Shown piece by piece: positions 11,677 to 52,676 of a DNA stretch of 64,000 bases; positions within the stretch are counted from its first letter, which is position 1; each line of letters starts with the position of its first letter. The stretch lies in the IMG/VR virus record IMGVR_UViG_3300035698_017588, positions 1 through 64,000 of that record. One strand, given 5' to 3'. Below the pieces are notes generated by a model, which was not told where the DNA came from, searched no databases, and worked only from the letters and a program-made list of their open reading frames with translations. The DNA is from a virus. A program made the position numbers and the translations under genes.

Positions 11677-12861
11677 TTATATTTGCTTGGAACGAACGAC
11701 AGATATCTCTTTCCACTGCTTCCAGCGGTTCCCCATCGACACCTTGTAAGGGAACACAAGATCCTGCGTAAAAATCCCATCAAACGGACGATAAAAAATC
11801 TCACCAACCTTCTCAACCACATGGCCCAAAATCTTCTTATCCTTAGGCAAAGAAAGGACCACACCATCATGGATGTCTGTAATTAAGTAGTTCGGAAACA
11901 TCCGACGAACATTCCATAACACATTCTGCATCGCAGCAGCAACACTACCCTGCAAAATAGCATTAAAAACAGAACGCTCCGTACGATCTTGCTTCAAACG
12001 AAACTGACGACCAACAATATTAGCAGAATACTTATCCTCACGAAGCTTCATCAACGTACCCTGCAACCAATTACACAACTTCGGAAACTCACCCCTAATC
12101 ACCTCATCAGAATAATCCAAACTATTAATCGTCTTCAACAACAACAGCTTAGCATCATCCCGAGCCTGACTACCACACCCAGTCAACCGCTTAGACAAAT
12201 AAGTATAGGGGTCAGAATCGAAGAAAGAACTATTAAGAGCATCATCACCCGAAAACAATGAAGCGATCCGAAAGTCAGCACAAATCCAGTCAAAATGCAA
12301 CTGCACTGACTCGTACGGCATCATAGGCTGATAAATCGCATCAGCATTAGACCAACCCTGAACATTAAAACCAGTACACTTCGATCGGCCAGAATAAGTG
12401 TCCCAAGACCAATGTGGTTCCATCTTGGTGTAATTCAACATCAAACCAGTGCGTTCCATTCCAACGTAAACGCTTTGTGCTTTGGCTAAGATGTTCTGAT
12501 ATGGACGATTAGGAACAGCCTTGACCAACTCGACGATCTTTTCACAAAGGATCTTATCCTTACTAGAATCGCCGGTTGATTTGATGGAACTGTAAGCATA
12601 GTCGCGAGCCTGCGTCCCGCCATGCAGCTCTTCCATATTGAAAGCTCGGAGCAGATCGCCCATATTCGGAGACCGGAAATCACCTTGAGCGGCCCACGAC
12701 AATAGTTCGTGTGCTCCATCAAAGCGTTTAAAGGTCTCAGCGAGACTCTTGCCTCCGCCCTGCCTGAAAATCTCGAAAGCGACAGTCTTCTGCTCGTTTT
12801 GGAAATGAAACCAAGCTGGGCGACCTTTATTGTCGATTGTCGCCACAGCATAGGTTGTCAT
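11677..12861 (-). CDS. Compact family A DNA polymerase without exonuclease domain
   Basis: 394 residues covering only the polymerase part. The palm entry segment WDTYSGRSKCTGFNVQGW matches the T-GR-S...NxQ pattern of Pol I. Motif A is FDWICADFRIASLFSGD (catalytic Asp kept; the usual steric-gate Glu is Asp). Motif B is RDDAKLLLLKTIN, keeping Arg and Lys but with Leu for the usual Phe. Motif C is ITDIHDGVVLS, with the catalytic HD kept and the usual Glu replaced by Gly. No 3'-5' exonuclease or 5' nuclease domain precedes it; the first 120 residues are unassigned. It overlaps the upstream zinc gene by 4 bases (ATGA). Since a Pol III alpha is also encoded, this may be a gap-filling, translesion or specialised enzyme. 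Confidence 0.75.
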   Translation of the reverse strand: MTTYAVATIDNKGRPAWFHFQNEQKTVAFEIFRQGGGKSLAETFKRFDGAHELLSWAAQGDFRSPNMGDLLRAFNMEELHGGTQARDYAYSSIKSTGDSSKDKILCEKIVELVKAVPNRPYQNILAKAQSVYVGMERTGLMLNYTKMEPHWSWDTYSGRSKCTGFNVQGWSNADAIYQPMMPYESVQLHFDWICADFRIASLFSGDDALNSSFFDSDPYTYLSKRLTGCGSQARDDAKLLLLKTINSLDYSDEVIRGEFPKLCNWLQGTLMKLREDKYSANIVGRQFRLKQDRTERSVFNAILQGSVAAAMQNVLWNVRRMFPNYLITDIHDGVVLSLPKDKKILGHVVEKVGEIFYRPFDGIFTQDLVFPYKVSMGNRWKQWKEISVVRSKQI

Positions 12862-19656: not shown

Positions 19657-19891
19657 TCTCACCTTGGTTATCAGAATTAATAGCCGGTTTCACTTCCGTA
19701 GTGAACTGGCCTACTACCTTTACGGCAGATGGTTTAACACGTAGAATACGGGCACCGCGTGACAACACAAGGAATTCGTCGTGGCTAGATACAACAGACC
19801 ATCGGCCACTTGAATCAAACCCACCTTTCTGCCCAAGAACACCAGTGGTATCAATAATAATTACAATGTCGAAAGCACGGATATTCTTCAT
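19640..19891 (-). CDS. Hypothetical protein (83 aa)
   Basis: Starts MKNIRAFDIVIIIDTTGVLG, a small beta-rich protein with an acidic C-terminus (INSDNQGENDGES). Its end overlaps the recA start by 17 bases. It is the first gene of the long leftward unit; the 44 bases to the divergent gene at 19936 must hold both upstream regions. I see no strong ribosome-binding site before it. Family not recognised. Confidence 0.5.
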   Translation of the reverse strand: MKNIRAFDIVIIIDTTGVLGQKGGFDSSGRWSVVSSHDEFLVLSRGARILRVKPSAVKVVGQFTTEVKPAINSDNQGENDGES

Positions 19892-21248: not shown

Positions 21249-21259
21249 CGTAGGAACCC

Positions 21260-21649
21260 ATGTCAAAAGCAATTATTGTCAAAATTGATCTCGCAACGCC
21301 GCCCGAAGAATACATCAAACGTCACTTGGGTAAGCAGTCTGAAGAAACCAAGGCGGCAATCGAAAAAGTAGTCCAAGAGAAAAAACTCGTACAAAATGCC
21401 AAGGATTCTCTGGAAGAAAAAACACGCCAGAAAACCACAGCATTAAACAACCTATTTACTCAAATCCATGCACAGGGCGAAACTGGTATGCCCAAGCAAG
21501 AAGTCATCGACGCCATGATGGAAATGGAAGCCGTCAAAAGCTCGTCCGGAGCGACTTTGAAGCTCAAGAAAATGGTGGCCACTGAATTAATCGGATATGA
21601 GCTAAAAGTGACCAAGACGCATTATTTCATCGTCAAAGCCGAAAACTGA
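21260..21649 (+). CDS. Hypothetical coiled-coil protein (129 aa)
   Basis: Starts MSKAIIVKIDLATPPEEYIK and is strongly helical and charged (EEKTRQKTTALNNLFTQIHA), with a C-terminal strand segment YELKVTKTHYFIVKAEN. No catalytic motif. The 3' end overlaps the convergent KdsB-like gene by 28 bases. Family not recognised. Confidence 0.55.
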   Translation: MSKAIIVKIDLATPPEEYIKRHLGKQSEETKAAIEKVVQEKKLVQNAKDSLEEKTRQKTTALNNLFTQIHAQGETGMPKQEVIDAMMEMEAVKSSSGATLKLKKMVATELIGYELKVTKTHYFIVKAEN

Positions 21650-23866: not shown

Positions 23867-24321
23867 TATGATTCTGTCTCCCAAGAGCTTGCACCCGGAG
23901 GCACAGGCTTCGGTTCGAACTCGGACTTGAATTGCGGGTGTATCAAAAACGAGAGATAATTTGGGTCGGTCGCCACCGCTTTTGTTTCCAAATCGACCTC
24001 AACAGCGGTGACAAACACCAAAAAAGCCGGACCATTCACAATTGGTTCGCCAGATATCTCACAATCTGCTCGGCCTCTGCGTTTTTTCTGCTGAAGTATA
24101 ACATTCGTACCAATGACTTTCTGGGCGAATTTGCCATGACAATTGCCACACAAATCAAGAGATCCTATAGCAGCTTTGCGATTTGCTTTAAGAACGGAAG
24201 GCCCCATACCATTGATGATATTGACACCACAGAGATCGTAACTGTAGTATCTGAACTTCGATTTCAATTTCATGTGACAAAGATCACACGATATTCCATC
24301 TTTAGTCGTAAGCTGGGCCAT
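23866..24321 (-). CDS. Hypothetical zinc-finger protein (151 aa)
   Basis: Starts MAQLTTKDGISCDLCHMKLK. A first CxxC is followed by LDLCGNCHGKFAQ, giving a four-cysteine ribbon of about 50 residues, then a beta-rich region. It directly follows the Pol III C-terminal gene with a 1-base overlap, so it is transcribed with the replicase pieces. Function unknown. Confidence 0.5.
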   Translation of the reverse strand: MAQLTTKDGISCDLCHMKLKSKFRYYSYDLCGVNIINGMGPSVLKANRKAAIGSLDLCGNCHGKFAQKVIGTNVILQQKKRRGRADCEISGEPIVNGPAFLVFVTAVEVDLETKAVATDPNYLSFLIHPQFKSEFEPKPVPPGASSWETES

Positions 24322-25520
24322 TAATCTTTCCGATTCAACGGGATTATCACATTATTACGCAACATCGTAAAGGACTTGCGTTTCGGCTGATAAGTCACCG
24401 GAATCATACAAGCAACACCCTTCCTCAGGACCGATGGGTTAATCTTCTCTAGATTGTCGCTCCAGATGAAAACTGTCGTGGTTTCACGACCATCAGTAAC
24501 ATTCAATCGACAATAAGGATCACCCTTCTGAGTGCTACCTCTATGTGCTTCATTGATAATGCATTCGAGGAAAGCAGCCTGCTGAGTCATGAAATCCTCA
24601 ATACAACCCTGGATATCCCGATTAGCCCGAGTATCATACATCAAAAGCGGATTGGATAGATGATAACCCAAATACTCTTCTTCATAATCAATGATTTCCG
24701 AGATCTTATAATCGTCGAACAATTCATTGAAAGTCTTCAAATCGTGCTTATCTTCTGGCATCCATTCAGTCACCCGCTTAGGATAATTAGCTTCCTTCTT
24801 GCGAGGGAATAAATCACGATAGGCGTCAACCTGACGATCACGTTCATTCTCGATCTCGGAAGGCGACCAACCAACATGCTCAATCAGAGTCGGATACAAC
24901 TCACGACGTTCAGCAGTCTTCATCTTCTTATACTTATAAGCATAATAATGCCACAAAGCCCGGCGATTCTCATGCTCCGGAACCTTCTCGAAAGCCCCAA
25001 GACGAATCAAACGCTCAACAAGAGTCTTACCAGCATTCGTACGTTCGATAAAGTCATCAAGCGATTCAAAAGGCCCCTCGACCTCAGTGATGGCACGATC
25101 TGATTCACCGATGCCCTTAATCGAAAGCATACCGACCGAAACAACATTGCCAATCACGCTAAAATTAGGGCTCAGATTGTTCACATCAACAGGGATGATC
25201 TCAAACTTCTCGTAGCCCTCTTTCGGGGGTCGTCCGAGCTTGGTGATCTCAGTAGGGTGCCAACCTTCTGCACGGGCCACGGAGATATAACGGGGAGCCT
25301 TCTTTGGGTCACACGTACTCAGAACCGACGCGATCCACTCTGGGAAGAAGTGAGCCTTGAACCATGTGCAGCGATACGCGATAATAGCAGCGTACGCAAC
25401 TCCGTGACTATTTTTGTGAATAACGGAACTATTGCCGGTCAAATAGTTGTGGTGTTTTGATTGCATCTCTGGCGAATAAGTTCTTTTAACACCCAAAGAA
25501 GTCAACGATTTAATTTTCAT
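24321..25520 (-). CDS. dnaE: DNA polymerase III alpha subunit, C-terminal piece with C-intein
   Basis: 399 residues. Residues 1-37 are a C-intein (MKIKSLTSLGVKRTYSPEMQ to the terminal Asn); the +1 Ser 38 starts SHGVAYAAIIAYRCTWFKAH, the well-conserved fingers segment of bacterial DnaE. Further on, MLSIKGIGESDRAI is the helix-hairpin-helix, and the C-terminal OB fold appears near VFIWSDNLEKINPSVLRKG. The spliced chain would have palm from 26997-29003, fingers and C-terminal DNA-binding domains. A tau-binding tail is not obvious. Start overlaps the endonuclease stop (ATGA). Confidence 0.9.
   Translation of the reverse strand: MKIKSLTSLGVKRTYSPEMQSKHHNYLTGNSSVIHKNSHGVAYAAIIAYRCTWFKAHFFPEWIASVLSTCDPKKAPRYISVARAEGWHPTEITKLGRPPKEGYEKFEIIPVDVNNLSPNFSVIGNVVSVGMLSIKGIGESDRAITEVEGPFESLDDFIERTNAGKTLVERLIRLGAFEKVPEHENRRALWHYYAYKYKKMKTAERRELYPTLIEHVGWSPSEIENERDRQVDAYRDLFPRKKEANYPKRVTEWMPEDKHDLKTFNELFDDYKISEIIDYEEEYLGYHLSNPLLMYDTRANRDIQGCIEDFMTQQAAFLECIINEAHRGSTQKGDPYCRLNVTDGRETTTVFIWSDNLEKINPSVLRKGVACMIPVTYQPKRKSFTMLRNNVIIPLNRKD
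25410..25520 (-). mobile_element. Split intein, C-terminal half (Pol III alpha)
   Basis: 37 residues ending SSVIHKN before +1 Ser. Length and layout match known short C-inteins of the DnaE/gp41 split type. Partner half at 27000-27320. The SKHHNYLTGNSS stretch is block F. Confidence 0.85.
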
Positions 25521-27046
25521 ATTTTCAACCCATATTTCAAATTACCAGAATCCCACAATCTACGATAGCCGTTTGCGAACATATTTTCTGACTCAGTGAG
25601 ATCAGGATCAAAATGATCTAGTTTCTCAGAAAGTTTATGCTTTTGAAATGACCTTCTGTTATACAATTTATTAGATCTCCAATATCTATAACCAGGATTC
25701 GTGATACCATTAAATGTCATCCCAAATTTAGAATAACACGTATCTTGAGTAGTAAAAGATCGATCGACAAATGTTTCGATACAAGTCGGTTTGTCGAATT
25801 TAATAAAGCTTTTCATGAGTTTGGAAAAACCGCCAATAACGGTATGTCCAATAATATTTGCAAATCTGGAGATGGAATAATTTACATCATTTCTGGTTAG
25901 AGATAAAACAGAAACAATTTTACCATCATTCTCTAGAGCATACGCCACATGCGGCATAACTCCACAATGATAATGATTATCATCAAAAAATCTTTTAGCC
26001 TGCAAATTGTCCATCTTGATAATAGAGCATTTTCTTGCGTAGATCCTAGATGATAAACCCAAAGAATTTTTTATCATCGAATCTGCTACGATTCTTCGTT
26101 TAGAATAATCAAGATCAACAAACTGCAACAACTTAAAACCTCTTCTATAAGCCATGGCAGATTTCATAGAATGATAGTTTCTGTGATATGTCGATTCTTT
26201 AATATTGAATGAATGAAAATAAGCACCATGATATTCTATACCAACATTAGCATCAGGTAGCCAGATATCCAATTCCAAACCATTTAAAATAGATCGGTTA
26301 GATCTTTCTATTTTACCATCATAAACAGAAGCGATCCAATCAGCCAGTTCATTCTCTGGAATAGAAGTCAATTTCTCAGTGTTGCATTTAGGACAGCCAT
26401 TTTTCTGTCTAACATGCCCAGTTGGTCTAGTTTCAAAATCACCGTGTTTAGGACATACGACTATCACTTTTGTTCGCTGATTTATATATATCGTTTTTGA
26501 ATAATCATATTTATTACCATGGGTCGCAACACACCTTCCGATGAATTCTTCCTGGTTTAAAGTTCGTGGGTCATCTGATGGACTATCATAATAATCGGAC
26601 CTAGCTTTAGTCACTCTGTCGACATAATCTTGATCTGTGCGAAATTTTTCCTTGATCGCCTTTGACATTTTCTCCTTGAAGTCTTCAGAAACAGAAAGCC
26701 TTTCATGATTGATCACCATTTTCTCACGATAAGAAGGATCTTTCCATCTTTCTTTGGCTGTTTCAGATCTTTTTGAAAAACTGGAAGACTTCGACGCAAC
26801 AATAGACTGTCTCTCTTTAAAAGAGTCCAAAGAACGAAAACATTTCGGACAATGATAACAATTAACGTGTTTAGATTGATTATTAACCTTCCTAACATGA
26901 TCATAAAAATTCGTATCTGAATTCTCATTGCAAGAATAACACGACACAATAACTCTATGCTTCAGCTTTGGTTTAACATGACCTGGATCGACCAATCTAA
27001 GGCGTGGTGATCTCCAATCCTTTGGCAACAATTTCTCTAACTTCAT
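25517..27046 (-). CDS. Homing endonuclease (zinc-ribbon repeats plus Vsr/EDxHD nuclease) inside the fractured Pol III gene
   Basis: About 509 residues from ATG 27046; ATG 27058 is also possible. N-terminal cysteine pairs (SCYSCNEN; YHCPKCFRSL) are followed by basic helical units (ETAKERWKDPSYREKM) of the NUMOD type. A DUF723-like unit follows (EFIGRCVATHGNKYDYSKTI ... CPKHGDFETRP ... GCPKCNTEKL). The nuclease core reads NGLELDIWLPDANVGIEYHG and AYFHSFN, with the catalytic Asp and Glu and the YxHS motif. The C-terminal 170 residues (FFDDNHYHCGVMPHVAYALE, ending MFANGYRRLWDSGNLKYGL) are nearly the same type as in the gene at 32507-33943. Its placement between intein halves marks it as the mobile gene of a fractured gene. 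Confidence 0.83.
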   Translation of the reverse strand: MKLEKLLPKDWRSPRLRLVDPGHVKPKLKHRVIVSCYSCNENSDTNFYDHVRKVNNQSKHVNCYHCPKCFRSLDSFKERQSIVASKSSSFSKRSETAKERWKDPSYREKMVINHERLSVSEDFKEKMSKAIKEKFRTDQDYVDRVTKARSDYYDSPSDDPRTLNQEEFIGRCVATHGNKYDYSKTIYINQRTKVIVVCPKHGDFETRPTGHVRQKNGCPKCNTEKLTSIPENELADWIASVYDGKIERSNRSILNGLELDIWLPDANVGIEYHGAYFHSFNIKESTYHRNYHSMKSAMAYRRGFKLLQFVDLDYSKRRIVADSMIKNSLGLSSRIYARKCSIIKMDNLQAKRFFDDNHYHCGVMPHVAYALENDGKIVSVLSLTRNDVNYSISRFANIIGHTVIGGFSKLMKSFIKFDKPTCIETFVDRSFTTQDTCYSKFGMTFNGITNPGYRYWRSNKLYNRRSFQKHKLSEKLDHFDPDLTESENMFANGYRRLWDSGNLKYGLKI

Positions 27047-29003
27047 GATACAGGCCATCCTCACATAAAAATTTATGGTCTAAAGTCACGTCTTCGCAAG
27101 AACCGTCTTCGAACTCTACTCTAAAGATTTCTTGTTCACCAGAATAACTAATATCCACACAATGATCTATGAACAAATCTTGTCCATCATATGACCAAAG
27201 ACTTGGTAATTGATTATGTTCAAGAAAATCACTTGTCACGGGGGGAGAGTCACACCATTCTTGAATAGTCATCTCTAATCCAGTAACAACACATTTCAAT
27301 TTTGTGTCGTATGACAAACATTTATTAAAAGCGTAGCGACCGAAAGTCTCAAGCTTTCCCCAATATTCCTCAGCAAATTGTGGGCCAAGAGTCTTTGACG
27401 CACCACGAATCCATTTTTCTTTGATAGCTGGGAGCTTGTGGACCTTCTTCTTCGCAATGTCCTTCCGACTCATCTGAGCCTCGGTGGCCGAAAAACCACC
27501 CAGACGTTGCCAAAGAGCCGTCAACTGTTCCTGATAAGTACAAACACCATAAGTCTTCTCAAGGATCTCGAACATAATCGGGTTGCGAGCCTTAAGCTCG
27601 CCCTTCCACGATTGAGTTGGATCATCACGATTAGCCAAAACAGTAGGAATCGACTGCATCGGGCCAGGGTGCCCGAGAGCATTCAACAATGTCAACTGGT
27701 GCGGATCACTGACACCCTCACCCTCAGATGCGTCAGCCAAAATCGACTTGGCCAATGACGTATCGAACTGGAAAATCGTGTCCGTCCGTTGGGTGTTGAT
27801 GAGCTTATAAGTCGCTTTATCATCATAGCGAATCTCGTGCTCGTTCCCATCCAAGTCATAAAACTTGCCACAATAACCAGCCTCGGGATCGACATCATCA
27901 AGACCCGAAAGCTCATAGCAACCGCCATATCCCTCGATCTCTTGTGGAATACCAAAAGTAATCCCGCGATTCGCCTTGATCATATAACAACAGTTATAAA
28001 TGTACTCCAAGGTCTTAAGACCAAGAATGTCCCATTTAATATATCCGCATTTGGATAACTGTTGATTCCCGCCCTCAGACCACATCGAAACCCAAGGGCC
28101 ATCAACCTTATTCTTACCAAGCGGGATGTTGCCAAGAAGCTTGGTACTGGCGATGATTAGAGCACCCGCATGCATGCCCATGTTGCGAATTCGACCGACC
28201 ATTTTAGCCGCATAGCCAATAGCAGCCGGGAAACGACGAGCAAAATCAGCTAAAGGCTCGTTCTCTTTCAACAGACGTTCGAGAGTCGGAGCGTCAGTTA
28301 GTTCACTACCACATTTCGGACATTGATAACGAGCGTGGCGATTGCCACACTCACGCATTTTGCCGCTCTCGTCTGTGATGTTGCCTTTACAAGTAGCCAG
28401 ACCACCGGGTTTGAGGTTATCAAGATCATCGGGGAGATTGGAAGTCAGCTTTTCAGCTTCGTTCCTATGCATCAATCCTAAAGCGGTTGCTGCGTCTTGG
28501 ATCGCCATCTTGAATTTGTATGTCTGCCATGTGCCGACACTACACACTTGAAGATCGCCCAATCCGTTCCCATCACCATAACGTCTGATGGCGTAGTCTT
28601 TGATCGGATCGCGGGCCGCTGGGAGACAGTCAATGTCAATATCTGGGACATCATTGTCTTTTTGGAAGTCATGGGGTGGACTACCATGCTTCTCGACGTA
28701 TGCGGCGACGTCGTCGTAGCTTGTGCTGATTAGGCATTCCGAGCCTCGTTGAGACATGGGATCGACGGGATCTGTGAGCATCCCGAGAACCCATGGTATT
28801 AGCAGATTGTTCGGATTCGAGTCGAATTTGGCTTCGGTGTTGAGATACTCGATCCAAAGACCATTTAAACCTTGCTTGTTCAGTTCGTACAACTCGAACT
28901 CAACACGATCCTTGTATTGTTCTGGTAAGTGGTCGGCTGCTTGCTTTACAGACTCTTCGAACTCTTCCCAGGTTTCAATCTTGTTTAGCAGCGTTGTACT
29001 CAT
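26997..29003 (-). CDS. dnaE: DNA polymerase III alpha subunit, palm piece with N-intein
   Basis: About 668 residues from ATG 29003 (MSTTLLNKIETWEEFEESVK). The catalytic aspartates are at VPDIDIDC (120-125). Palm and fingers segments follow, with a Cys-rich insert (LATCKGNITDES ... YQCPKCGSELTDAP) that may bind zinc. Later DTIFQFDTSLAKSIL and VCTYQEQLTALWQRLGGFS are typical DnaE fingers motifs. The chain reaches FGRYAFNK, where the N-intein begins. The upstream zinc-finger gene overlaps the start by 29 bases. The first 100 residues resemble a worn second copy of the segment that ends the PHP piece. With the PHP piece and the C-piece it would form a complete replicase. Confidence 0.9.
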   Translation of the reverse strand: MSTTLLNKIETWEEFEESVKQAADHLPEQYKDRVEFELYELNKQGLNGLWIEYLNTEAKFDSNPNNLLIPWVLGMLTDPVDPMSQRGSECLISTSYDDVAAYVEKHGSPPHDFQKDNDVPDIDIDCLPAARDPIKDYAIRRYGDGNGLGDLQVCSVGTWQTYKFKMAIQDAATALGLMHRNEAEKLTSNLPDDLDNLKPGGLATCKGNITDESGKMRECGNRHARYQCPKCGSELTDAPTLERLLKENEPLADFARRFPAAIGYAAKMVGRIRNMGMHAGALIIASTKLLGNIPLGKNKVDGPWVSMWSEGGNQQLSKCGYIKWDILGLKTLEYIYNCCYMIKANRGITFGIPQEIEGYGGCYELSGLDDVDPEAGYCGKFYDLDGNEHEIRYDDKATYKLINTQRTDTIFQFDTSLAKSILADASEGEGVSDPHQLTLLNALGHPGPMQSIPTVLANRDDPTQSWKGELKARNPIMFEILEKTYGVCTYQEQLTALWQRLGGFSATEAQMSRKDIAKKKVHKLPAIKEKWIRGASKTLGPQFAEEYWGKLETFGRYAFNKCLSYDTKLKCVVTGLEMTIQEWCDSPPVTSDFLEHNQLPSLWSYDGQDLFIDHCVDISYSGEQEIFRVEFEDGSCEDVTLDHKFLCEDGLYHEVREIVAKGLEITTP
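27000..27320 (-). mobile_element. Split intein, N-terminal half (Pol III alpha)
   Basis: 107 residues, CLSYDTKLKCVVTGLEMTIQ to the stop. Close in style to the N-intein of cyanobacterial DnaE (CLSYxT start; EQEIFRVEFEDGSCEDVTLD as block B with DHKFL). The insertion site is K before S in FNK-SHG, three residues downstream of the cyanobacterial site (Y before CFNK). Confidence 0.87.
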
Positions 29004-29934
29004 CCAGTTTTTCCGGGTGCTTTTGTTTGACGTGATTGGTAACACCGAAGGCTTTCTTCATCGTTTTGTCACAGTAAGGACAGGAAAAACCTTCAGTCGG
29101 TTTCTCTATCACTTCTGGTACTTCCTCTTCGGAACCACGGGGATCAGCGGTTGGTGCTTCCGTGGTGGTATCCGTCTCGGAGTCGTCTTCAAGGAATTGT
29201 GGTGGCACATCATTGTCGACCACTAAATCTTCAACGTCAACGGCGGCATCGGATGATTTGGTGAAGTTCCGGAGCGAGACTGGAAGCAACACCCATGGGC
29301 CTTCTGCGACGATGTGTTTTCCCTGTATTGTAAACGAGCTGTAATACAAGAGCAGATTATGATCGTTCGATTGGGAAACGATCTCTTGCAGATGCTTCTT
29401 AGAGAAAGCCTTGCGGAATCCGACGATTTTGGATGGTGGTTCGACTAAGGCGAAAACGAATTTTTCATAGTCGAGGTCATTTAGTGATTTGCCGATATCG
29501 ACAGCGACATTCCCGCTGTCATCTTGACTGTAGAACACAGAAGGGGGCAGGTTTTTCACAATGATTTCATCCACAATAGCACGTTCGTCAGAAGCAGCCA
29601 AAAGAGACGATTCAGCTGATAATAATTTCTCAATCACCAAGTCTGGTGCACCGTATTCAACACGCTTGAATTTGTCACGCCACTCACCAAGCACCTTCTC
29701 AGTACAAGATGACTCATCTGGGCTGACCAATATCAATTCGTGTCGGAAATTACCTATTGTGGCAGCTAAAGCCAATAATTCACCGCGACCGGCAGACGGG
29801 CAAATCTCAGCAGAACCAAACCAACGTGCCATGTAAAGCATGGAGTAGTCTCCATCTTTCATCTCACGTTGGACTTGGAGAGAGCAATAAAGTTGTCGGT
29901 CAATTATTGAGTCGTCGTACTGAATTCTGATCAT
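28975..29934 (-). CDS. Hypothetical protein with C-terminal C2H2 zinc finger, between Pol III pieces
   Basis: About 319 residues from ATG 29934 (MIRIQYDDSIIDRQLYCSLQ). The first 250 residues are an unassigned alpha/beta protein (AATIGNFRHELILVSPDESS). An acidic/Thr linker follows (DDSETDTTTEAPTADPRGSE), then a single classical finger FSCPYCDKTMKKAFGVTNHV with KQKH. The start overlaps the stop of the PHP piece in ATGA, and the end overlaps the palm piece start, so it is made in step with both polymerase pieces. A structural or loading role for the split replicase is possible; inference only. Confidence 0.6.
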   Translation of the reverse strand: MIRIQYDDSIIDRQLYCSLQVQREMKDGDYSMLYMARWFGSAEICPSAGRGELLALAATIGNFRHELILVSPDESSCTEKVLGEWRDKFKRVEYGAPDLVIEKLLSAESSLLAASDERAIVDEIIVKNLPPSVFYSQDDSGNVAVDIGKSLNDLDYEKFVFALVEPPSKIVGFRKAFSKKHLQEIVSQSNDHNLLLYYSSFTIQGKHIVAEGPWVLLPVSLRNFTKSSDAAVDVEDLVVDNDVPPQFLEDDSETDTTTEAPTADPRGSEEEVPEVIEKPTEGFSCPYCDKTMKKAFGVTNHVKQKHPEKLDEYNAAKQD

Positions 29935-32483
29935 GTTGATGAAACCGGTTTTGGCATGGATGCATTGAGACGGTATCCACCACGGGCTTCTGCAAGGAAC
30001 CGGTCGAATGACAGGTCCCATTTCAGAGGATCGATCGAGGATAACCCTAGTAAGTAACAAACCAAACTACCACCACCACTACCCCGTGGACCAAAGATCC
30101 ATCCCTGCGACTTTCCATACATAATCAGATCCTGAGTAATCAAGAAATAACTAGCAAAGCCTTTGGAAATAAAACGAGTCAGCTCGATAGTAGCTTGTTG
30201 GACGTAAGTGACCTCACGACCATCGATCACGAACTTGCGATCGACCTTATCAAGACCTTTCATTCTCAACGCTTTCATCACAATCTCAGTCAGCTTCGTA
30301 GCATCATCAGTGATACGCGGAAACTTTGGATTGCTATCCAACTCAATGTAATCACACTTATCAACAATCTCAAGAGTAGCATCACACATAGCCTCGAAAG
30401 CACTAGATGACACCTTCTCACAGTAGCGGTTCGACGCATAATAAGACCAAAGCTCAGCCCTGGTCTTAAAATATTGCTCGCTACTATTCACATGGAACAA
30501 ATCAGGAGAATCAACAGTCGTCCCCTGAGCCGTAGCCATCATGATCTTCTGGATCTCGAAGTCCTTACGCTGAATGTAATGAGAATTGCCAGATGACAGA
30601 CCGACCAAGAAGGAATGATCATCTTCGACTTGTATACACCACACTTCTTTTAAATCAGATTTAACGACTTTAAATGGATTTTTAATCCAAACTCCATGGT
30701 GATCTTGATGATGTTTAGATCTAACTTTAGAAGCGTCAAAATACTCGCCCAACCCAATCGCAAAGATACCAGCTTTACCGATAGAACCAGTATAACCCTC
30801 CCTATGTCTTGTTGATATCCTACGACCGTCTTTTTTCTTGATTATAGCATCTTTAGCGGGTCGTAGCTGCGGAGTAACCCCGACACCAAGACAAGCAAAA
30901 GCGTGCATTAAATCAGTGAAAAGTTGGAAGGATGTAGTAAAAAAACTGCGACGAGAAATACAACCATCACCTTCAACGTAACCTCGTATTAAAACCGACA
31001 ACTGACGAGATGATAACTTAGTCCAAAATTGCGGTAATTTCTTAGCATAAACAGAAAATCCACAACAATTAGCGAACAATTTGGAAAAACCAGAAGAACA
31101 GATTCTAATTGATCTGCCTTTATCAGATACTTTAGAGATATCACTTGGAGAAAAACCAAATTGGGTAAAATATTCTTGTATCCGACTGAAACGATCAAGT
31201 TCCAAATCATTACCAGCAAATCCGAGCCTGTAGTCCTTATCGGTATGACCTTCAGCAATGTAAATGCCGAACAACCATAATAATTCATCAGTCAATTCTA
31301 TGACATTTGGTATCGGATTTATCGATTTGCCGCCAAATGGGTAAATCAACCCATCCCTTACTTTACATCTAGGGTCGTCAATATAATCACTAATAGTCAA
31401 TTCTTTTAAATCGTCATCAGGAAGAATGGGAGCGGCTACGTGTATAAAATCATCGGGACTAATATCACGAATCTCTTTCATTCCAATCAAACCGGTTTCA
31501 TGGCATTTAGAATACAATCTATGATTTTCAGTGCATACCATCACTTGGCTACCCAGAAAACCATATAATTCTTCTCTATCTCTAACCTTTCTCTTACCAA
31601 TACACTGTACTTCTCTAAGACGATTTTTATGTGTCCAAACATACTCACCAGGGCGAATGTCGCACAGCCTCTTAGAACCATTGATAGTCTGAACAGTAAC
31701 CTCAGGATTCCAACAATCATTCGCAAGAACAGTCTTCAATCCAAAATAATCTGCCAAGCCTACTAGATCCCAAAAGACCTCGTAGTCATCCTCAATCCCT
31801 GGCATTTGCAATTCGATATAGTAATCCTCACCGAATGCATCCTTAAACTTCTTTACCCACGTCGCAGCAGCTTGAAAACGCTCCTTACGAGTAGTCTCAA
31901 CAATGAGATTATCCTCTTTGTCTCGAAGCTCCTTATACCGAAGCTCATGAGCCACGGGACCATTGAGGCACCCGCTGAGAATAATCAAGCCTTCCCGGTG
32001 TTTACAAAGCTTGTCGAACCAAATACGGTTCATTTTACGACTACCAGCCCCGAAGAGCCCATCATCATAAGCTTCCGTGGTCAATTTGAGCAAGTTATGT
32101 AAACCCTGCTCTGTCTTGCAGAGCACGGTAAGGTGACGATTACGATTGATTCTAGTGGCGAGTGCGAAATTCTCAGCACGCCAAGCCTGACTCTTGAGCT
32201 TTATGCCTTGTTCGACCAACGACTGTCTTTGGGGTTCATAATCATTAAAATAAATCTCGCAGCCAAATATACTTTTCAGACCGTGTTTTTTGAATTCAAA
32301 ATGAAAATCTGGAACAGATCCCATATGACCATGTTCAGTGATGGCCATGCCGGGCCATCCATTATCGACACATTTTTCGGCGTATTCTTCGATAGTCGCT
32401 ACACCATCAAGTGCCGAATAAATCGAATGACAATGAAGGTGGGCAAATCCCGAAGATCCGGTATATTCGCTAGGTTCAGGCAT
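29931..32483 (-). CDS. dnaE: DNA polymerase III alpha subunit, PHP-domain piece with contiguous intein
   Basis: About 850 residues from ATG 32483 (MPEPSEYTGSSGFAHLHCHS). The PHP metal motifs are kept: HLHCHSIYS, AITEHGHMGS, IFGCEIYF, LSGCLNGP, and the final Asn-Asp-x-His, which is interrupted by an intein (residues 257-633) after VLAND. After the intein, SHYIQRKDFEIQK continues the domain. The C-terminus runs into the start of the palm (GFASYFLITQDLIMYGKSQG, PRGSGGGSLVCYLLG) and stops at VSST, shortly before the catalytic aspartates. The upstream in-frame start at 32525 would overlap the endonuclease gene on the other strand and adds a hydrophobic stretch foreign to the family. Confidence 0.9.
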   Translation of the reverse strand: MPEPSEYTGSSGFAHLHCHSIYSALDGVATIEEYAEKCVDNGWPGMAITEHGHMGSVPDFHFEFKKHGLKSIFGCEIYFNDYEPQRQSLVEQGIKLKSQAWRAENFALATRINRNRHLTVLCKTEQGLHNLLKLTTEAYDDGLFGAGSRKMNRIWFDKLCKHREGLIILSGCLNGPVAHELRYKELRDKEDNLIVETTRKERFQAAATWVKKFKDAFGEDYYIELQMPGIEDDYEVFWDLVGLADYFGLKTVLANDCWNPEVTVQTINGSKRLCDIRPGEYVWTHKNRLREVQCIGKRKVRDREELYGFLGSQVMVCTENHRLYSKCHETGLIGMKEIRDISPDDFIHVAAPILPDDDLKELTISDYIDDPRCKVRDGLIYPFGGKSINPIPNVIELTDELLWLFGIYIAEGHTDKDYRLGFAGNDLELDRFSRIQEYFTQFGFSPSDISKVSDKGRSIRICSSGFSKLFANCCGFSVYAKKLPQFWTKLSSRQLSVLIRGYVEGDGCISRRSFFTTSFQLFTDLMHAFACLGVGVTPQLRPAKDAIIKKKDGRRISTRHREGYTGSIGKAGIFAIGLGEYFDASKVRSKHHQDHHGVWIKNPFKVVKSDLKEVWCIQVEDDHSFLVGLSSGNSHYIQRKDFEIQKIMMATAQGTTVDSPDLFHVNSSEQYFKTRAELWSYYASNRYCEKVSSSAFEAMCDATLEIVDKCDYIELDSNPKFPRITDDATKLTEIVMKALRMKGLDKVDRKFVIDGREVTYVQQATIELTRFISKGFASYFLITQDLIMYGKSQGWIFGPRGSGGGSLVCYLLGLSSIDPLKWDLSFDRFLAEARGGYRLNASMPKPVSST
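30585..31715 (-). mobile_element. Contiguous intein with LAGLIDADG endonuclease in the Pol III PHP domain
   Basis: 377 residues from CWNPEVTVQTINGSKRLCDI to LSSGN, with +1 Ser. Block B is QVMVCTENHRLYSK, block F is WCIQVEDDHSFLVGLSSGN. LAGLIDADG-type helices are LLWLFGIYIAEGHTD and LSVLIRGYVEGDGCIS, each with the catalytic acid. It appears intact and therefore likely active. Confidence 0.87.
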
Positions 32484-32506
32484 CGAAAATCCAAAGAGTT
32501 GAAGTA

Positions 32507-33943
32507 ATGGCAAGAAGAAGAACACAAGAAGAATTTATTGAACAAAGCTTAAAGAAACATGGCGAAAAATATGATTATAACAAATCTGATTATATAAATG
32601 AATATACTAAAATAATAATAATATGCCGAGAGCATGGCGAATTTGAGCAAAAACCGTCAATCCACTTAAAGGGACATGGGTGCAGAAAATGCCGATATGA
32701 AAAATTAGCAGCCAATATGGGTGGTGGATTAACCGGTTTTATTAAGAAAGCTTCTAAAATTCATGATAATAAATACGATTATTCAAAAGTTGAATATTCG
32801 ACATCACAGAAGAAAGTGGTTATCATATGTCCAGAACATGGTGAATTCGAACAATTACCGTGTAATCATATTAATAAGTGTGCTGGTTGTTTGAAGTGTT
32901 CGACCGCTTACCAACCCACAAATAAAGAATTTATAAACAAACTTGTTTATAAATTCGGAGAAAGGCATGATTATTCTAAAACTATATATACATCATCGAA
33001 AGACAGAATTACTGTAATATGTCCAGAGCATGGTGAATTTCAAATTAGAGCTGAATCTTATGTAAGATCTGGATCTTGCCCTAGATGCTGCTCGTCTAAC
33101 GAACAATTGGTGATCCACGATTTTGTTACCAGCTTCGAACCAACGGCAAAATCGAATGATAGGGAAGCCATACGCCCTTTAGAATTAGATGTCTATATTC
33201 CAAGCAAAAAACTTGGAATAGAATATAATGGAAATTATTGGCATTCATTTAACAGAAATGAAACAACAGAAGAGAGAAAGAGGCACCAAACAAAATTCGA
33301 GAAATGCGAAAAATCTGGTATAAGATTATTTCAAATAAACACCACGGAATATGAAGACAAATTCGAAATAGTCCAATCTATGATCAGACACAGATTAGGA
33401 TTATCAAAAAAGGTCGGTGCCAGAAAAACAATGGTCAAAGAAATATCTAACAAAGAAGCGGGAATTTTTTTAGACCGCTGTCATATTAGTGGCCACAGAA
33501 ATGCATCTAAAAATTATGGATTGATTCTTGACGACAAATTGATCGCCACAACCACATTTAGTAAATATAAAATAGGTTGGGAAATAATAAGATACGCCAA
33601 CGAGTTAAACATAACCGTGGTAGGCGGTTTTTCTAGATTACTAAAATCATTTATAATCGACAATCGACCGAAAACAATCATGACGTTTGCTGATCTAAGA
33701 TATGGAAGTGGAAATGTTTATAAAGAATCTGGCTTCGAGTTAGTGAAACGAACGAAACCAGGATATGTCTATCTTGACTCTAATGCAAGATATATGGGGT
33801 CTAGGATAAAATTCCAAAAACATAAACTTGAAAAAATTTTAGAAGTCTTTCATACAGAACTAACGGAATCTGAAAACATGTTTCTCAACGGTTATAGAAG
33901 AATGTGGGATGCTGGGCATAATCAGTTTATTTTGAATCTCTAA
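32507..33943 (+). CDS. Free-standing homing endonuclease with DUF723-like repeats and Vsr/EDxHD nuclease
   Basis: 478 residues. Three repeats of about 60-65 residues share the pattern FIEQSLKKHGEKYDYNKSDY, then IICREHGEFEQKPSIHLKGH with a CRKC pair: the DUF723-type zinc-ribbon unit used for DNA binding. The nuclease core is EQLVIHDFV, then LELDVYIPSKKLGIEYNGN followed by YWHSFN, with the EDxHD acidic residues. The C-terminal domain (ISGHRNASKNYGLILDDKLI; TESENMFLNGYRRMWDAGHN) matches that of the gene at 25517-27046. Strongly AT-rich and antisense to the operon in which it sits, 24 bases from the Pol III PHP start codon. Confidence 0.83.
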   Translation: MARRRTQEEFIEQSLKKHGEKYDYNKSDYINEYTKIIIICREHGEFEQKPSIHLKGHGCRKCRYEKLAANMGGGLTGFIKKASKIHDNKYDYSKVEYSTSQKKVVIICPEHGEFEQLPCNHINKCAGCLKCSTAYQPTNKEFINKLVYKFGERHDYSKTIYTSSKDRITVICPEHGEFQIRAESYVRSGSCPRCCSSNEQLVIHDFVTSFEPTAKSNDREAIRPLELDVYIPSKKLGIEYNGNYWHSFNRNETTEERKRHQTKFEKCEKSGIRLFQINTTEYEDKFEIVQSMIRHRLGLSKKVGARKTMVKEISNKEAGIFLDRCHISGHRNASKNYGLILDDKLIATTTFSKYKIGWEIIRYANELNITVVGGFSRLLKSFIIDNRPKTIMTFADLRYGSGNVYKESGFELVKRTKPGYVYLDSNARYMGSRIKFQKHKLEKILEVFHTELTESENMFLNGYRRMWDAGHNQFILNL

Positions 33944-48466: not shown

Positions 48467-48721
48467 ATGAGCAGAGTTAGCGATTTGTTGGATGATGCAG
48501 ATGAATTCATCATCATTACCATGAAGAAAAATAATGATGCCCAATTAGATGTGGGCGTCATTATGGGTTGTGACCCCGGTGGTCCAATGCTTGACGTCCT
48601 AGACAATGTTGTTAAGGACGCTAAAGATGCAGCGAGCAGTTACAGCAAGCGTGCTGAGACGGACAGCGATCAAACCGAAAGTGACGGTAATTCAAAAACC
48701 GGTTACGCAAGCAGCGTCTAA
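48467..48721 (+). CDS. Small acidic hypothetical protein (84 aa)
   Basis: Starts MSRVSDLLDDADEFIIITMK. The Asp-rich N-terminus is followed by QLDVGVIMGCDPGGPMLDVL and a Ser/Asp tail. No motif. It lies 1 base after the sigma-factor stop and overlaps the next gene by over 100 bases in another frame; its codon pattern and position favour a real gene. Confidence 0.5.
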   Translation: MSRVSDLLDDADEFIIITMKKNNDAQLDVGVIMGCDPGGPMLDVLDNVVKDAKDAASSYSKRAETDSDQTESDGNSKTGYASSV

Positions 48722-49634
48722 TAAACAGACCCTTCAGCGTACTACTCAAGTACGTCACCAACCGATTCCACCACGGACCCAAGTACAACCAATTCCACCA
48801 AGCGAAGCGGCCCCGGTGGTCGCTCGAAGAAACCAATCGGTTAACACGGTCCGAGACCGAATCAACAGGACACGGCGGGAATTAGTCCCCCAAGCTCCTA
48901 GACGAAAAGTCCCACCCAAAGTCACCTATCTCAGTGCTGACCTAACGGTCGATCAGATCGAAAAAGTCAAAGCACTCAAGGGATCAGCCCAAGGCCGATA
49001 CCTGGTGATTTTGGGTAACGGGCCATCTTTAGAGCAAGTCGATACTAACCGCTTAGCACAGTACGACAATATCAAGCTCTGTACGATCAACGTCCCAGAC
49101 AAACGATGCTGGCCAACACCATACTGGGCCTTCTATGATCGATCACAATATCATCGTCACAAAGAATTATACAAGGGCTTTGCAGGAACCGTCTTCAATA
49201 GCACCGGCATCAAAGAAGGCAACGTAGGAAGCATCAAGTTCAAACACAACCCCGGACTAGGTTGGAGTAGAGATATTTCTAGGGGAGTATATGTCGGCAT
49301 GTCGAGTGTCTACGCCACCCTTCAAATCGCTGTGTACATGCAATTCAACCGGATATACGTCGTCGGTTGCGATATGAGCGAAAGCATGGACCTAGGCAAG
49401 ACCCATTTTTACGGGATAAACCCAGACGTCAAGCCAGAGGAACGCAAAAAGCGTTTTGTCAAGGAAGCGAATTGGTATGATAGGATGACGGAAGTTTTAA
49501 AAGAAGACGAGAAACAAAAAATCGTGTTTTGTAGTAAGGGTGTAAATAAGTGGCCATTCATGAGTCACTTTACTACTGTGAGGCCAGATCAAGCCACACA
49601 ATTTATCATCCAGGATACGGGTTATGCCAGCTAA
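48606..49634 (+). CDS. DUF115/6-hydroxymethylpterin-diphosphokinase-like phage protein
   Basis: Up to 342 residues; the start is uncertain (ATG 48606 or 48627) because the first 110 residues are basic, Pro/Gln/Arg-rich and overlap the previous gene. The recognisable domain begins at GRYLVILGNGPSLEQVDTNR, then CTINVPDKRCWPTPYWAFYD and RIYVVGCDMSESMDLGKTHF. This wording is that of the DUF115 (MAF/flagellin glycosylation-type) family in phages and bacteria, which handles nucleotide-sugars. A role in glycosylating phage proteins is plausible. Confidence 0.65.
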   Translation: MLLRTLKMQRAVTASVLRRTAIKPKVTVIQKPVTQAASNKQTLQRTTQVRHQPIPPRTQVQPIPPSEAAPVVARRNQSVNTVRDRINRTRRELVPQAPRRKVPPKVTYLSADLTVDQIEKVKALKGSAQGRYLVILGNGPSLEQVDTNRLAQYDNIKLCTINVPDKRCWPTPYWAFYDRSQYHRHKELYKGFAGTVFNSTGIKEGNVGSIKFKHNPGLGWSRDISRGVYVGMSSVYATLQIAVYMQFNRIYVVGCDMSESMDLGKTHFYGINPDVKPEERKKRFVKEANWYDRMTEVLKEDEKQKIVFCSKGVNKWPFMSHFTTVRPDQATQFIIQDTGYAS

Positions 49635-50031
49635 GTTCTATGTCGCGACCACTCTTTCTAATGCAGATCAGGCCAAAATAGCAATTAATCGACTGAGTGA
49701 CTTTGGTCATGAAGTCAGCTACGATTGGACGACCCATGGTTTCGCACCAGTCGAAGTCAGGAAAGAGATCGCAGCCAAGGAATTGCAAGGCGTTATTGAT
49801 GCGGATGTTTTATTCGTTATCTGGCCCGGTGGTGGCGGAACCCATATTGAGATGGGTGTCGCGATATCTCTAAACAAGCCGATCATCTTTGTTGCTCCAG
49901 AGAGTCTTGAAAGAGAAGTATCATTTTACCAACTCGACAATGTATTGAGAATGAGTGAAATGAGCAAGGCCATCGAGGTCGCCCACAAGCATCTATCCCA
50001 ATACGAAGGACAATTAGCAGATTATGAGTGA
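49624..50031 (+). CDS. Nucleoside 2-deoxyribosyltransferase-like protein
   Basis: 135 residues. MPAKFYVATTLSNADQAKIA is the first strand and helix of the deoxyribosyltransferase/DUF4406 fold. ADVLFVIWPGGGGTHIEMGV holds the Gly-rich turn and catalytic-type Glu (G-x-x-x-E-x-G), followed by LNKPIIFVAPE. These enzymes exchange bases between deoxynucleosides or hydrolyse 5'-deoxynucleotides. Being three genes upstream of the PurZ-like gene, a part in nucleotide metabolism fits. It overlaps the next gene by 8 bases. Confidence 0.6.
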   Translation: MPAKFYVATTLSNADQAKIAINRLSDFGHEVSYDWTTHGFAPVEVRKEIAAKELQGVIDADVLFVIWPGGGGTHIEMGVAISLNKPIIFVAPESLEREVSFYQLDNVLRMSEMSKAIEVAHKHLSQYEGQLADYE

Positions 50032-50626
50032 CATCAAATGGGGTTCATTGATTATTCAATGCAACGACGCACAATCTATCCGACCAGCTTCTGAGCTTGC
50101 TCACAAACAAAGAGTCGGCAATGTAATCGTCCCGCCCGAGAGCATCGAGCAAAGCATCATGGGACGCAGCATGATGAAGGCGAAATACCATCTCCTGACA
50201 ACAATCAAGAACCCAAGCCAACGGGCTCCAGGCTCTGACAAATTCATCAACATCAACGCAGATGTTTTTGACGTCGAAGGATTCGAAATCGTTCCAATGA
50301 AAACGGATAACCCGCAAGTCTTGCTCAAAGACTTGCGGATGTGCTCTGACTTTCTGAAAAACAACCTCAACCAACAAGTAACTATTGGTTGGAACCTTTC
50401 AGGTCACGGTCTCAAGGACAAAGAGACCCTGCAGCTTTTAGATTCAATCGCCAAGGGCTACAGACCAGATTATATCCGGTTTGATGAATCCCAAGGGCTG
50501 ATCTGCACAATCGCGAAAAAGATTTGTGCGACGAAAATGGCTCTTCCATTCAATGCTGACGTTGAATCTGACTGGAAAATCATCGAAGCTTCGGAAGCCC
50601 TCAAGCTTGCGAAACAACCAGCATGA
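50024..50626 (+). CDS. Hypothetical protein (200 aa)
   Basis: Starts MSDIKWGSLIIQCNDAQSIR. The alternation of strands and helices (KFININADVFDVEGFEIVPM; QVTIGWNLSGHGLKDKETLQ; YRPDYIRFDESQGLICTIAK) suggests a TIM-barrel-like or Rossmann-like enzyme, but I see no known active-site motif. It sits between the deoxyribosyltransferase-like gene and a small membrane-protein gene, upstream of the PurZ-like gene. Confidence 0.5.
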   Translation: MSDIKWGSLIIQCNDAQSIRPASELAHKQRVGNVIVPPESIEQSIMGRSMMKAKYHLLTTIKNPSQRAPGSDKFININADVFDVEGFEIVPMKTDNPQVLLKDLRMCSDFLKNNLNQQVTIGWNLSGHGLKDKETLQLLDSIAKGYRPDYIRFDESQGLICTIAKKICATKMALPFNADVESDWKIIEASEALKLAKQPA

Positions 50627-50644: not shown

Positions 50645-50881
50645 ATGAACGAACAGCCCGAATTTTATCCGGCGTGGAAAGTGAAAGGTGGTCTGTTCTG
50701 GTCATTCAGAATCATGTTAGTGCATTTATTGTTCATCTTAACTCCGCTAGCAGGACTCTTCATAGACCCATTGATGGTTCCAGTCGGACTGTGCATCTCA
50801 ATGGGCTGGGCATACACAGAATTTAATAGGTATTCTAAATGGTGGAACAAGACCCTCAGAAAAGACCGAAAACCATTTTGA
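50645..50881 (+). CDS. Small membrane protein (78 aa)
   Basis: Two adjacent hydrophobic stretches (SFRIMLVHLLFILTPLAGLF; LMVPVGLCISMGWAYTEF) flanked by basic ends (WWNKTLRKDRKPF) suggest a two-span inner-membrane protein. No family recognised. Located between the 200-residue hypothetical gene and the PurZ-like gene. Confidence 0.55.
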   Translation: MNEQPEFYPAWKVKGGLFWSFRIMLVHLLFILTPLAGLFIDPLMVPVGLCISMGWAYTEFNRYSKWWNKTLRKDRKPF

Positions 50882-50921: not shown

Positions 50922-52052
50922 ATGAAACTTGGAAAAATTAACCTCGTCGTAGACGGACAACATGGCTCAACTGGCAAAGGTCTGATCAACTCATACCTTG
51001 CATGGCGAGACAGGCCCGAAGTCATCAGTTGCACCAACATGGCAAACGCAGGCCACACCGCCATTCTCCCGGACGGAACAAAATTCGTCGCAAAAGCCCT
51101 GCCAAGCTCCACGATCCTTAACAAACTCGACAACTACTCACCAGAAGTCGTTGTCGGAGCAGGAGCAGCATTCACCGTCGACCAGCTGCTCAAAGAACTG
51201 AAAGAATGCGGCAACCCGAACTTAACCGTCCATCCAAGAGCCGGAGTGATCACGCAAGAACACAAAGAGCGTGAATCCGAACTCAAGGGCGGTACAAAGC
51301 ACATTGCCAGCACAATGCAAGGCTGCGGAGCCTTTTTAGCTGATAAAGTGATGCGAGGACCAGATGTCAAGCTGGCTGGAGACTACGAAGATCTGTCCTT
51401 CTTCGCTCCGAGTTTTCTTGCTGATCGTCTTGGCTCCAAAAGCAAGTATCTGCCCGATCTGTTGATGCAATATTTAACCACCGGTCGCACTATTCTCCAT
51501 GAAGGCTCCCAAGGTTTTGGGCTTGATATCAATCACGGGAATCAATACCCGAATTGCACAAGCCGTCAATGTACAGCTTTGCAATCAGTCGCTGATATGG
51601 GGCTGCCCCATCAAGTTATTGGCGACGTTTACATGGTGATCAGGCCCTATCCAATTCGAGTTGGGAATGTGGTAGAAAAGGGCAAGACTGTTGGCTACAG
51701 CGGCGACCCCTACTCCGACAGCAAGGAGATCACTTGGGAGGAAGTCGCGACTCGATGCGGTGCTCCACCCGAAGTGATGGCCGGAGAGCTAACAACGGTC
51801 ACGAAGAGGCTTCGACGGGTGTTCGAGCGGTCAGATATTCAGTTCCGCCAAGCTGCAATGGTCAACGGGGCCACGAAAATTGCTTTGAACTTCGCGAATT
51901 ATGTTGATTGGTCTTGTTATGGCAAGAACAATTGGGATGAACTTGGCGACAAGGTTCACAGTTTCATTGCGAAGGTCGAAGACGCGGCTGGAGTGCGGGT
52001 TGAGCTTGTTGGGACCGGGCCGAGCGTTGAACATGTTGCGGTTCGTCCGTAA
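50922..52052 (+). CDS. PurZ-like adenylosuccinate synthetase (candidate 2-aminoadenine pathway enzyme)
   Basis: 376 residues, shorter than PurA (about 430) and nearer to phage PurZ. The GTP/IMP loop reads VVDGQHGSTGKG: where PurA has GDEGKG with catalytic Asp13, Ser 16 is found here. The substitution of that Asp by Ser is reported for phage PurZ, which uses dGMP and Asp to make the precursor of 2-aminoadenine (Z). The His of NAGHTAIL is kept. The C-terminal aspartate-binding region reads TTVTKRLRRVFERSDIQFRQ, and ALNFANYVDW replaces the usual TKLDVLD. No DatZ or MazZ gene is visible in the window, so Z-DNA is a hypothesis. An ordinary divergent PurA is the alternative. Confidence 0.78.
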   Translation: MKLGKINLVVDGQHGSTGKGLINSYLAWRDRPEVISCTNMANAGHTAILPDGTKFVAKALPSSTILNKLDNYSPEVVVGAGAAFTVDQLLKELKECGNPNLTVHPRAGVITQEHKERESELKGGTKHIASTMQGCGAFLADKVMRGPDVKLAGDYEDLSFFAPSFLADRLGSKSKYLPDLLMQYLTTGRTILHEGSQGFGLDINHGNQYPNCTSRQCTALQSVADMGLPHQVIGDVYMVIRPYPIRVGNVVEKGKTVGYSGDPYSDSKEITWEEVATRCGAPPEVMAGELTTVTKRLRRVFERSDIQFRQAAMVNGATKIALNFANYVDWSCYGKNNWDELGDKVHSFIAKVEDAAGVRVELVGTGPSVEHVAVRP

Positions 52053-52148: not shown

Positions 52149-52676
52149 ATGACTGAAACAAATCCAATTATGGCCTCGGCTAAATATCCACTTGGTAGCA
52201 CGGCATGGTTCCTGGGATTAGAGCCGCATGAAAGTTATCAATTGGGTGAACAATATGACATGTTCATGTTCGAGCATCCGATTTTCGCACTTAGCCGAAC
52301 GCCGTTGCGACATATTTGGAAGAGTAGTCGTGCATTGCCAAAGTTAGAACATGAATCTTTTGACAATATAATCACTCTGGTTACGAGTCGTATCTTAGTC
52401 CAGTCAATGGTTGTCGAGAGTATCGAACGAAGCGAAAATACAGGGGAATTCGTTTATTTGGATAATGATCTAGAGGTCTGCTTACCAGAGCAAGTTCTCT
52501 ATTCTACGAGGCGTGAAGCTTCGCGAGAACAAACACGAATTCTTAAAATGGTCAGAGACTGGGCAATAGCACAATTGGAAACGAACAATGAAATGTTTTC
52601 CATGCGAAGGAATAGCAAAAAACAACAAAATCGACGTCGTGATCGTCGATCCGGGAAAGCCCCTAATCAGGGGTAA
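52149..52676 (+). CDS. Hypothetical protein (175 aa)
   Basis: Starts MTETNPIMASAKYPLGSTAW after the perfect ribosome-binding site at 52132. Contains helical segments and an Arg/Lys-rich tail (MRRNSKKQQNRRRDRRSGKA) that overlaps the start of the giant gene in another frame. The basic tail could bind nucleic acid. No family recognised. The strong start signal suggests high expression, as for a virion or internal protein. Confidence 0.5.
   Translation: MTETNPIMASAKYPLGSTAWFLGLEPHESYQLGEQYDMFMFEHPIFALSRTPLRHIWKSSRALPKLEHESFDNIITLVTSRILVQSMVVESIERSENTGEFVYLDNDLEVCLPEQVLYSTRREASREQTRILKMVRDWAIAQLETNNEMFSMRRNSKKQQNRRRDRRSGKAPNQG

Follow-up and report, generated by a model that had tools for sequence, protein, structure and literature searches.

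The closest described counterparts of the locus analysed here are the PurZ systems of the phages phiVC8, S-2L and SH-Ab 15497, in which the synthetase is accompanied by DatZ and MazZ/DUF550. In S-2L the residues diagnostic of PurZ are S23, T273, Q/N308 and V241 with its adjoining insert (PMC8342488), and selectivity for 2-aminoadenine (Z) is achieved through depletion of dATP, the PrimPol of this phage being itself non-selective (PMC8065100, PMC8342488); the majority of polymerases fail to distinguish A from Z (PMC8342488). The PurZ0 phages (Arthrobacter Wayne, Gordonia Ghobes/Frizzle) instead encode DutZ, which converts dATP to dAMP, and the NDT enzyme DmtZ, a demonstrated partner of PurZ0 that takes dAMP as its substrate and either hydrolyses it or transfers the deoxyribose-5-phosphate to base Z (PMC12884076). 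The named PurZ phages in the collection that we searched are small (about 38-83 kb), and a search of the open-access literature returned no report of PurZ in phages as huge as those considered below, nor of a partner with the fold of deoxyribose-5-phosphate aldolase (DERA).

The purZ-type gene and its phylogenetic placement

The window studied here is a stretch of 64,000 nucleotides, positions 1-64000 of the 95,001-base IMG/VR record IMGVR_UViG_3300035698_017588, which is probably a fragment of a larger phage genome. The gene in question (50922..52052, + strand) is an uninterrupted open reading frame from ATG to stop, encoding a 376-residue protein. The original prediction had likened it to phage PurZ on account of a Ser in the catalytic loop GSTGKG and the sequence TTVTKRLRRVF, and both motifs are indeed present, at residues 15-20 and 291-301 respectively. 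The best-scoring model is NCBIfam PurZ NF038379 (E 2e-66), at 224 bits, which falls under the curated cut-off of 300 bits, a database naming threshold rather than a biochemical criterion. The protein also matches PHROG 1211 ('2-aminooxy adenylosuccinate synthetase', E 5e-63), and its top PDB chains are the PurZ proteins of phiVC8 and S-2L; together these matches rule out a chance motif match as the source of GSTGKG and TTVTK.

We mapped the active site using the S-2L numbering of the structure paper (PMC8342488). Ser16 of the window protein replaces the catalytic Asp13 of PurA and corresponds to S23 of S-2L, and a Ser occupies this position in every environmental viral-contig homologue inspected. 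In the window protein and in ten close relatives, Thr is found at T273 in the aspartate loop (TTVTK), and Val at V241 precedes the PurZ insertion. At the ATP site, residues 305/306/308 of the window protein read Asn-Phe-Asn, as in the phiVC8 type and differing from both PurA and PurZ0; the ten relatives likewise have Asn-Phe at 305/306 and Asn at 308, with the exception of G010, which has Asp at the latter position. Thus the protein shares with PurZ of phiVC8, S-2L and SH-Ab 15497 the fold family, the Ser in place of Asp13, the TTVT loop, the V241 insert and the Asn-Phe-Asn/Gln ATP site, whereas its C-terminus resembles that of archaeal PurA.

Homologues were recovered from some 25 huge-phage contigs of up to 408 kb. 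In a first tree eleven huge-phage sequences, including that of the window, form one clade (support 100/99). Its sister group is the clade of known PurZ proteins (86/93), PurZ0 and the archaeal and bacterial PurA proteins lying outside, and a branch supported at 100/99 separates the known PurZ and huge-phage groups from PurZ0. The proposed tree with PurA, PurZ0 and PurZ therefore places the enzyme on the PurZ side and outside cellular PurA, in line with the initial assignment. An extended tree with 30 environmental viral sequences is looser: most of these group with the window protein (85/79), and the PurZ set is not a single clade, G056, G057 and G058 falling with classical PurZ and G036 with a PurZ from Clostridia, while all 30 retain the Ser. 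The window protein is 33-38% identical to those of PurZ phages and about 26-30% to those of PurZ0 phages. Its nearest named relatives, at about 42% identity, are the PurZ of Clostridia MAG contigs and that of Bacillus phage vB_BpsS-140, the closest named-phage match (42.5%), which unlike the window phage has a small genome and, in its annotated record, shows no pair of NDT and DERA-fold genes next to purZ.

An ordinary phage PurA that raises the host supply of AMP would account for the closeness of the second-best model, that of archaeal-type PurA (206 against 224 bits), and for the C-terminal end that aligns with archaeal PurA; we consider this reading scarcely credible, given that every relative inspected has Ser in place of Asp13, that the GTP-site Asp has become Asn and that the tree places the enzyme on the PurZ side with support of 98-100. 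The active-site residues and the tree hence support a PurZ-type enzyme as opposed to a cellular PurA, and because the diagnostic residues are in place, the tree agrees and the Ser is kept throughout, it very likely carries out the PurZ reaction.

Several members of the family show peculiarities of their own. G036 encodes a very divergent, Clostridia-like PurZ (L180 11941-13125; GSSGKG, TSVTKK), which keeps the Ser and occupies the same cassette position as its counterparts, an apparent in-place exchange of the usual copy. The purZ gene of G011 (104944-108582, overlapping L012 6872-10510) is interrupted in frame by two intein-like insertions, one within the nucleotide loop NAGH/T, the other within the YPQ/CTSR motif; each begins with Cys and ends with His-Asn, followed by Thr and Cys respectively. 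Intein-like insertions in conserved motifs are usual for active, needed enzymes. A second Adenylsucc_synt match in the 408-kb record (G003 258326-259741) was rejected as PurZ, being a very divergent paralogue of the Asp type.

Known Z-pathway genes and the replication polymerases

It had been noted at the outset that the window contains neither DatZ nor MazZ, and this extends to the whole 95-kb record, itself probably a fragment, and to ten relatives of 84-408 kb, none of which yielded DatZ, MazZ or DUF5664. We compared a reference set of DatZ, MazZ, DUF550, DUF5664, DpoZ and PrimPol with all open reading frames of 13 records and obtained zero matches in the Pol III group, i.e. the records that share the Pol III alpha of the window phage; the DpoZ references matched G010 only, and did not match the compact family A polymerase described below. 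DatZ, MazZ and DUF5664 were not found in any of the 13 records, the search with PF18909 lacking a positive control from cellular genomes. As the records are fragments, DatZ or MazZ could sit in their missing parts. The only HD-domain match in the record of the window (78150-78812, - strand; L014), which has no counterpart in the relatives, was rejected as DatZ; it is sub-threshold in Pfam and appears MESH1/SpoT-like by eye.

More widely, members of the PurZ branch of the window or those beside the classical PurZ clade do encode genes of the known Z pathway. G056 has a PF18909 gene (dATP/dGTP diphosphohydrolase N-terminal; DUF5664) and a dUTPase directly after purZ, G051 has a YfbR/DatZ-like HD protein 2.8 kb upstream of purZ, and G052 combines a MazG-type gene 1.5 kb from purZ with a DpoZ-like family A polymerase, while a gene for adenylosuccinate lyase (PurB) lies close to purZ in G054 and at a distance from it in G004. 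These Z-pathway genes of the relatives provide independent support for a role of the wider PurZ group in 2-aminoadenine synthesis. Furthermore, dUTPase homologues occur in 7 of the 9 large relatives of the Pol III group (none was found in the incomplete record of the window) and could perform the conversion of dATP to dAMP, in which respect the group may be likened to the PurZ0 phages with their DutZ. By eye, dUTPase domains are fused behind a DHFR-like domain (G011 129937-131067) and behind a thymidylate-kinase-like domain (G007 20528-21646). Of the 13 core records, a ThyX-type thymidylate synthase (Pfam Thy1; record positions 67339-68712, - strand, L014) was detected in two alone, those of the window phage and of its 99% relative.

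The window phage, as the original prediction had it, encodes a Pol III alpha subunit. It is encoded in pieces (24321..32525, - strand) with intein-type and endonuclease insertions: the PHP domain and the start of the NTPase, bearing a Hint/LAGLIDADG insertion (29931-32525, -), the catalytic region and fingers (26997-29045, -) and the HHH region (24321-25520, -). All nine other records of the group retain Pol III alpha, always split, the break lying between a first NTPase half (ending ..FDRFLSPSRGGYMLN..) and a catalytic PDIDxDC half, which begins about 110 residues upstream of PDIDxDC. Two polypeptides make up the subunit in the window, G002-G008 and G011, the halves being about 56 kb apart in G002, and in the window further breaks with endonuclease-like open reading frames are present besides the Hint/LAGLIDADG insertion. 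Inteins with LAGLIDADG domains are also found in RecA (17440-19662, -) and a DNA helicase (39855-42695, +) of the window, amounting to a high intein load in replication genes.

The family A enzyme, likewise foreseen as small and exonuclease-less, is a protein of 394 residues (11677..12861, -) whose sub-threshold match to PF00476 (30.7 bits, residues 258-343) covers the polymerase region only. The residues of motifs A, B and C are recognisable by eye, and no 3'-5' exonuclease domain was found in it. This compact form, of about 400 residues and without the exonuclease, is kept in nine relatives; similar polymerases occur at no fewer than 79 loci (L207-L285) of huge-phage contigs, both where purZ was found and where it was not.

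In comparison with phiVC8, S-2L and SH-Ab 15497, then, the phages of the window group form a separate branch with huge genomes and Pol III, in which DatZ, MazZ, DUF550 and DpoZ were not found. The lack of a Z-selective, DpoZ-like polymerase in the group would fit a 2-amino-purine nucleotide made for partial modification, or as a decoy or block of a signalling pathway, in place of a genome-wide exchange of A for Z; as most polymerases do not discriminate the two bases, mixed incorporation of A and Z is to be expected unless dATP is depleted. S-2L, however, is selective with a non-selective PrimPol through just such depletion and works without DpoZ, so that a missing DpoZ does not exclude full replacement, and we regard a purely partial or signalling use as quite improbable. 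A Z-DNA genome copied by Pol III is a plausible reading; if the genome is indeed Z-DNA, the nucleotide pool must supply the main selectivity, as it does in S-2L, because the polymerases are not DpoZ-like and DatZ and MazZ were not found.

The conserved cassette and the likely partners of PurZ

While the missing DatZ and MazZ had been correctly recorded, two likely partner genes upstream of purZ had been overlooked. The gene lies in a conserved cassette in the order MptE-like, NDT, DERA-fold and purZ. The cassette is headed by an MptE-like gene (48606..49634, +; 342 residues; PF01973 E 1e-7, below the cut-off), which adjoins the NDT and DERA-fold genes in relatives and in the window overlaps by 11 bases the NDT-superfamily gene (49624..50031, +; 135 residues), whose end in turn overlaps by 8 bases the start of the DERA-fold gene (50024..50626, +; 200 residues). 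Between the latter and purZ is a small membrane-like open reading frame (50645..50881, +), a lineage-specific element that the window phage shares with its 99% relative alone, and downstream of purZ is a conserved gene for a protein of 175 residues with no family match (52149..52676, +). The order from the MptE-like gene to this downstream gene is kept in 9 of the 10 records of the Pol III group; G008 has all four cassette genes in a rearranged form, with NDT and MptE displaced. An Rfam search of the window gave no matches. Further downstream, a very large protein encoded in the window (52588-59694, +) combines a dockerin-like repeat with a trypsin-like stretch, and at 75924-76544 of the record there is an arylsulfatase-like open reading frame; these two recall Planctomycetota, a possible clue to the host.

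The NDT-superfamily protein matches PF05014 with an E-value of 2e-6, 0.5 bit under the cut-off, and a profile search links it to CMP N-glycosidase, BlsM and MilB. Its predicted model (pLDDT 87.8) has NDT and DNPH1 structures as fold matches, and the catalytic residues are recognisable as Tyr6 and the nucleophile Glu76 (GTHIEMG). It thus resembles the NMP N-glycosidases DNPH1/Rcl, MilB and BlsM, its best profile matches to solved structures, in fold, in the Tyr and in the GTHxExG nucleophile motif, but is remote from them (about 20% identity) and has Glu for the middle Asp/Asn. It is likely to be a deoxynucleoside-5'-monophosphate N-glycosidase. The presence of an NDT-superfamily enzyme with the synthetase recalls the PurZ0 phages; yet here the synthetase is of the PurZ type, a DERA-fold partner has not been reported for PurZ0 phages, and the NDT protein differs in key residues, being without equivalents of Asp12 and Pro57 of DmtZ and having Glu at the position of Asn77 (YDWT, Glu53). 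Deeper relatives lack the window-type NDT, and seven of them encode a member of a different NDT subfamily directly upstream of the DERA-fold gene. This second subfamily (Pfam PF15891/PF05014 matched in 3 of 4 tested) carries DmtZ-like YLAGPV(E/D) and YDPL motifs and has the Pro and the Asp/Glu.

No name for the product of the adjacent gene emerged from Pfam, PDB sequence or profile searches, and only the predicted fold supplied one. The model, computed for the family with a first sequence from L004 and not for the window copy, has a pLDDT of 84.7; its 50 best-ranked fold matches in the PDB are all DERA structures, engineered variants included, the best with an E-value of 1.6e-12 and a TM of about 0.72. 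The window copy is diverged and shortened (200 residues against 229-248 in the family) and shares only about 20% identity with the other copies. With DeoC/DERA the family shares the predicted fold, an FPxG-type motif and, in all members except the window lineage, a conserved C-terminal Lys at the Lys201 position. In contrast to the classical enzyme it gives no sequence-profile match, and in a provisional manual alignment, whose residue assignments found no support in a profile alignment with E. coli DeoC, it has Arg at the position of the Schiff-base Lys167 in nearly all members and Glu at that of Asp102 in most. As the Lys167 position reads Arg, the protein is probably not an ordinary aldolase.

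The DERA-fold gene was detected in 27 records (G000, G001, G029 and sets of 16 and 8), several of them near-identical, and purZ is present in all 27. Among 14 long contigs chosen only by their compact family A polymerase, seven have both genes and seven have neither, a split with an exact chance probability of about 1 in 3,400; some of the double negatives are probably fragments, and G050 resembles part of the phage of G004. Linkage alone fails to explain this pattern, because in G040 and G042 the two genes are about 175-187 kb apart. The window-type NDT is by comparison not exclusive to PurZ phages, since it was also detected in nine contigs of 9-84 kb that yielded no purZ in our search. This, together with the Arg at the catalytic Lys position of DERA and the dUTPase homologues of the relatives, could be taken to mean that PurZ makes dZMP while the NDT and DERA-fold proteins are a linked module for salvage or host-DNA degradation unrelated to Z-DNA, pool control being left to a DutZ-type dUTPase-like enzyme, to host enzymes or to none. 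We consider such an arrangement unlikely, if deserving of some weight: it sits poorly with the restriction of the DERA-fold gene to records with purZ, even where the two are far apart, and with the occupation of the slot beside it by NDT proteins of two different subfamilies. The genes for the NDT and DERA-fold proteins are likely to be pool-control partners of PurZ.

A proposed model for 2-aminoadenine synthesis in huge phages

Based on these observations we propose, as a model that is probable though by no means firm, that PurZ, depletion by the NDT enzyme and handling by the DERA-like protein together lead to the replacement of dATP by dZTP, wholly or partly. PurZ would condense what is presumably dGMP with aspartate, with ATP as the likely cosubstrate, to form succino-2-aminodeoxyadenylate, from which adenylosuccinate lyase, of the host or in some relatives of the phage, and kinases would produce dZTP, and this would take the place of dATP in all or part of the phage DNA. 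The NDT-family enzyme would hydrolyse a competing deoxynucleoside monophosphate, for which dAMP is the best guess, to the free base and deoxyribose-5-phosphate, which the DERA-fold protein may then bind or convert. Analogy with DmtZ makes action of the NDT enzyme on a deoxynucleoside monophosphate most likely, and the DERA-fold neighbour fits the product. The elements of this scheme that are directly supported here are the active site of PurZ, its phylogeny, the conserved cassette and the folds of the partner families. More tentatively, and with somewhat less than even confidence, we suggest that the huge Pol III-type phages may have arrived at Z-containing genomes by a third strategy, in which PurZ is combined with an NDT N-glycosidase and a non-classical DERA-fold protein that would eliminate dAMP, and with it dATP, and discard or recycle the deoxyribose-5-phosphate, replacing DatZ/MazZ and DpoZ.

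The window phage accordingly presents a variation on the known Z-genome pathway, in which the NDT and DERA-fold partners are what is new. As the usual helper genes are missing and these two genes lie beside purZ, the cassette suggests a different way of controlling DNA building blocks in a huge bacterial virus. The exchange of NDT subfamilies next to the DERA-fold gene has a parallel in the functional convergence reported between PurZ and PurZ0 phages, and the combination of PurZ, NDT and DERA-fold genes predicts, by way of small named genes, a third chemistry for clearing dATP. If huge Pol III phages do use 2-aminoadenine, the replacement of A by Z would be far more widespread than has been assumed, and a replicase of cellular type would have to cope with it.
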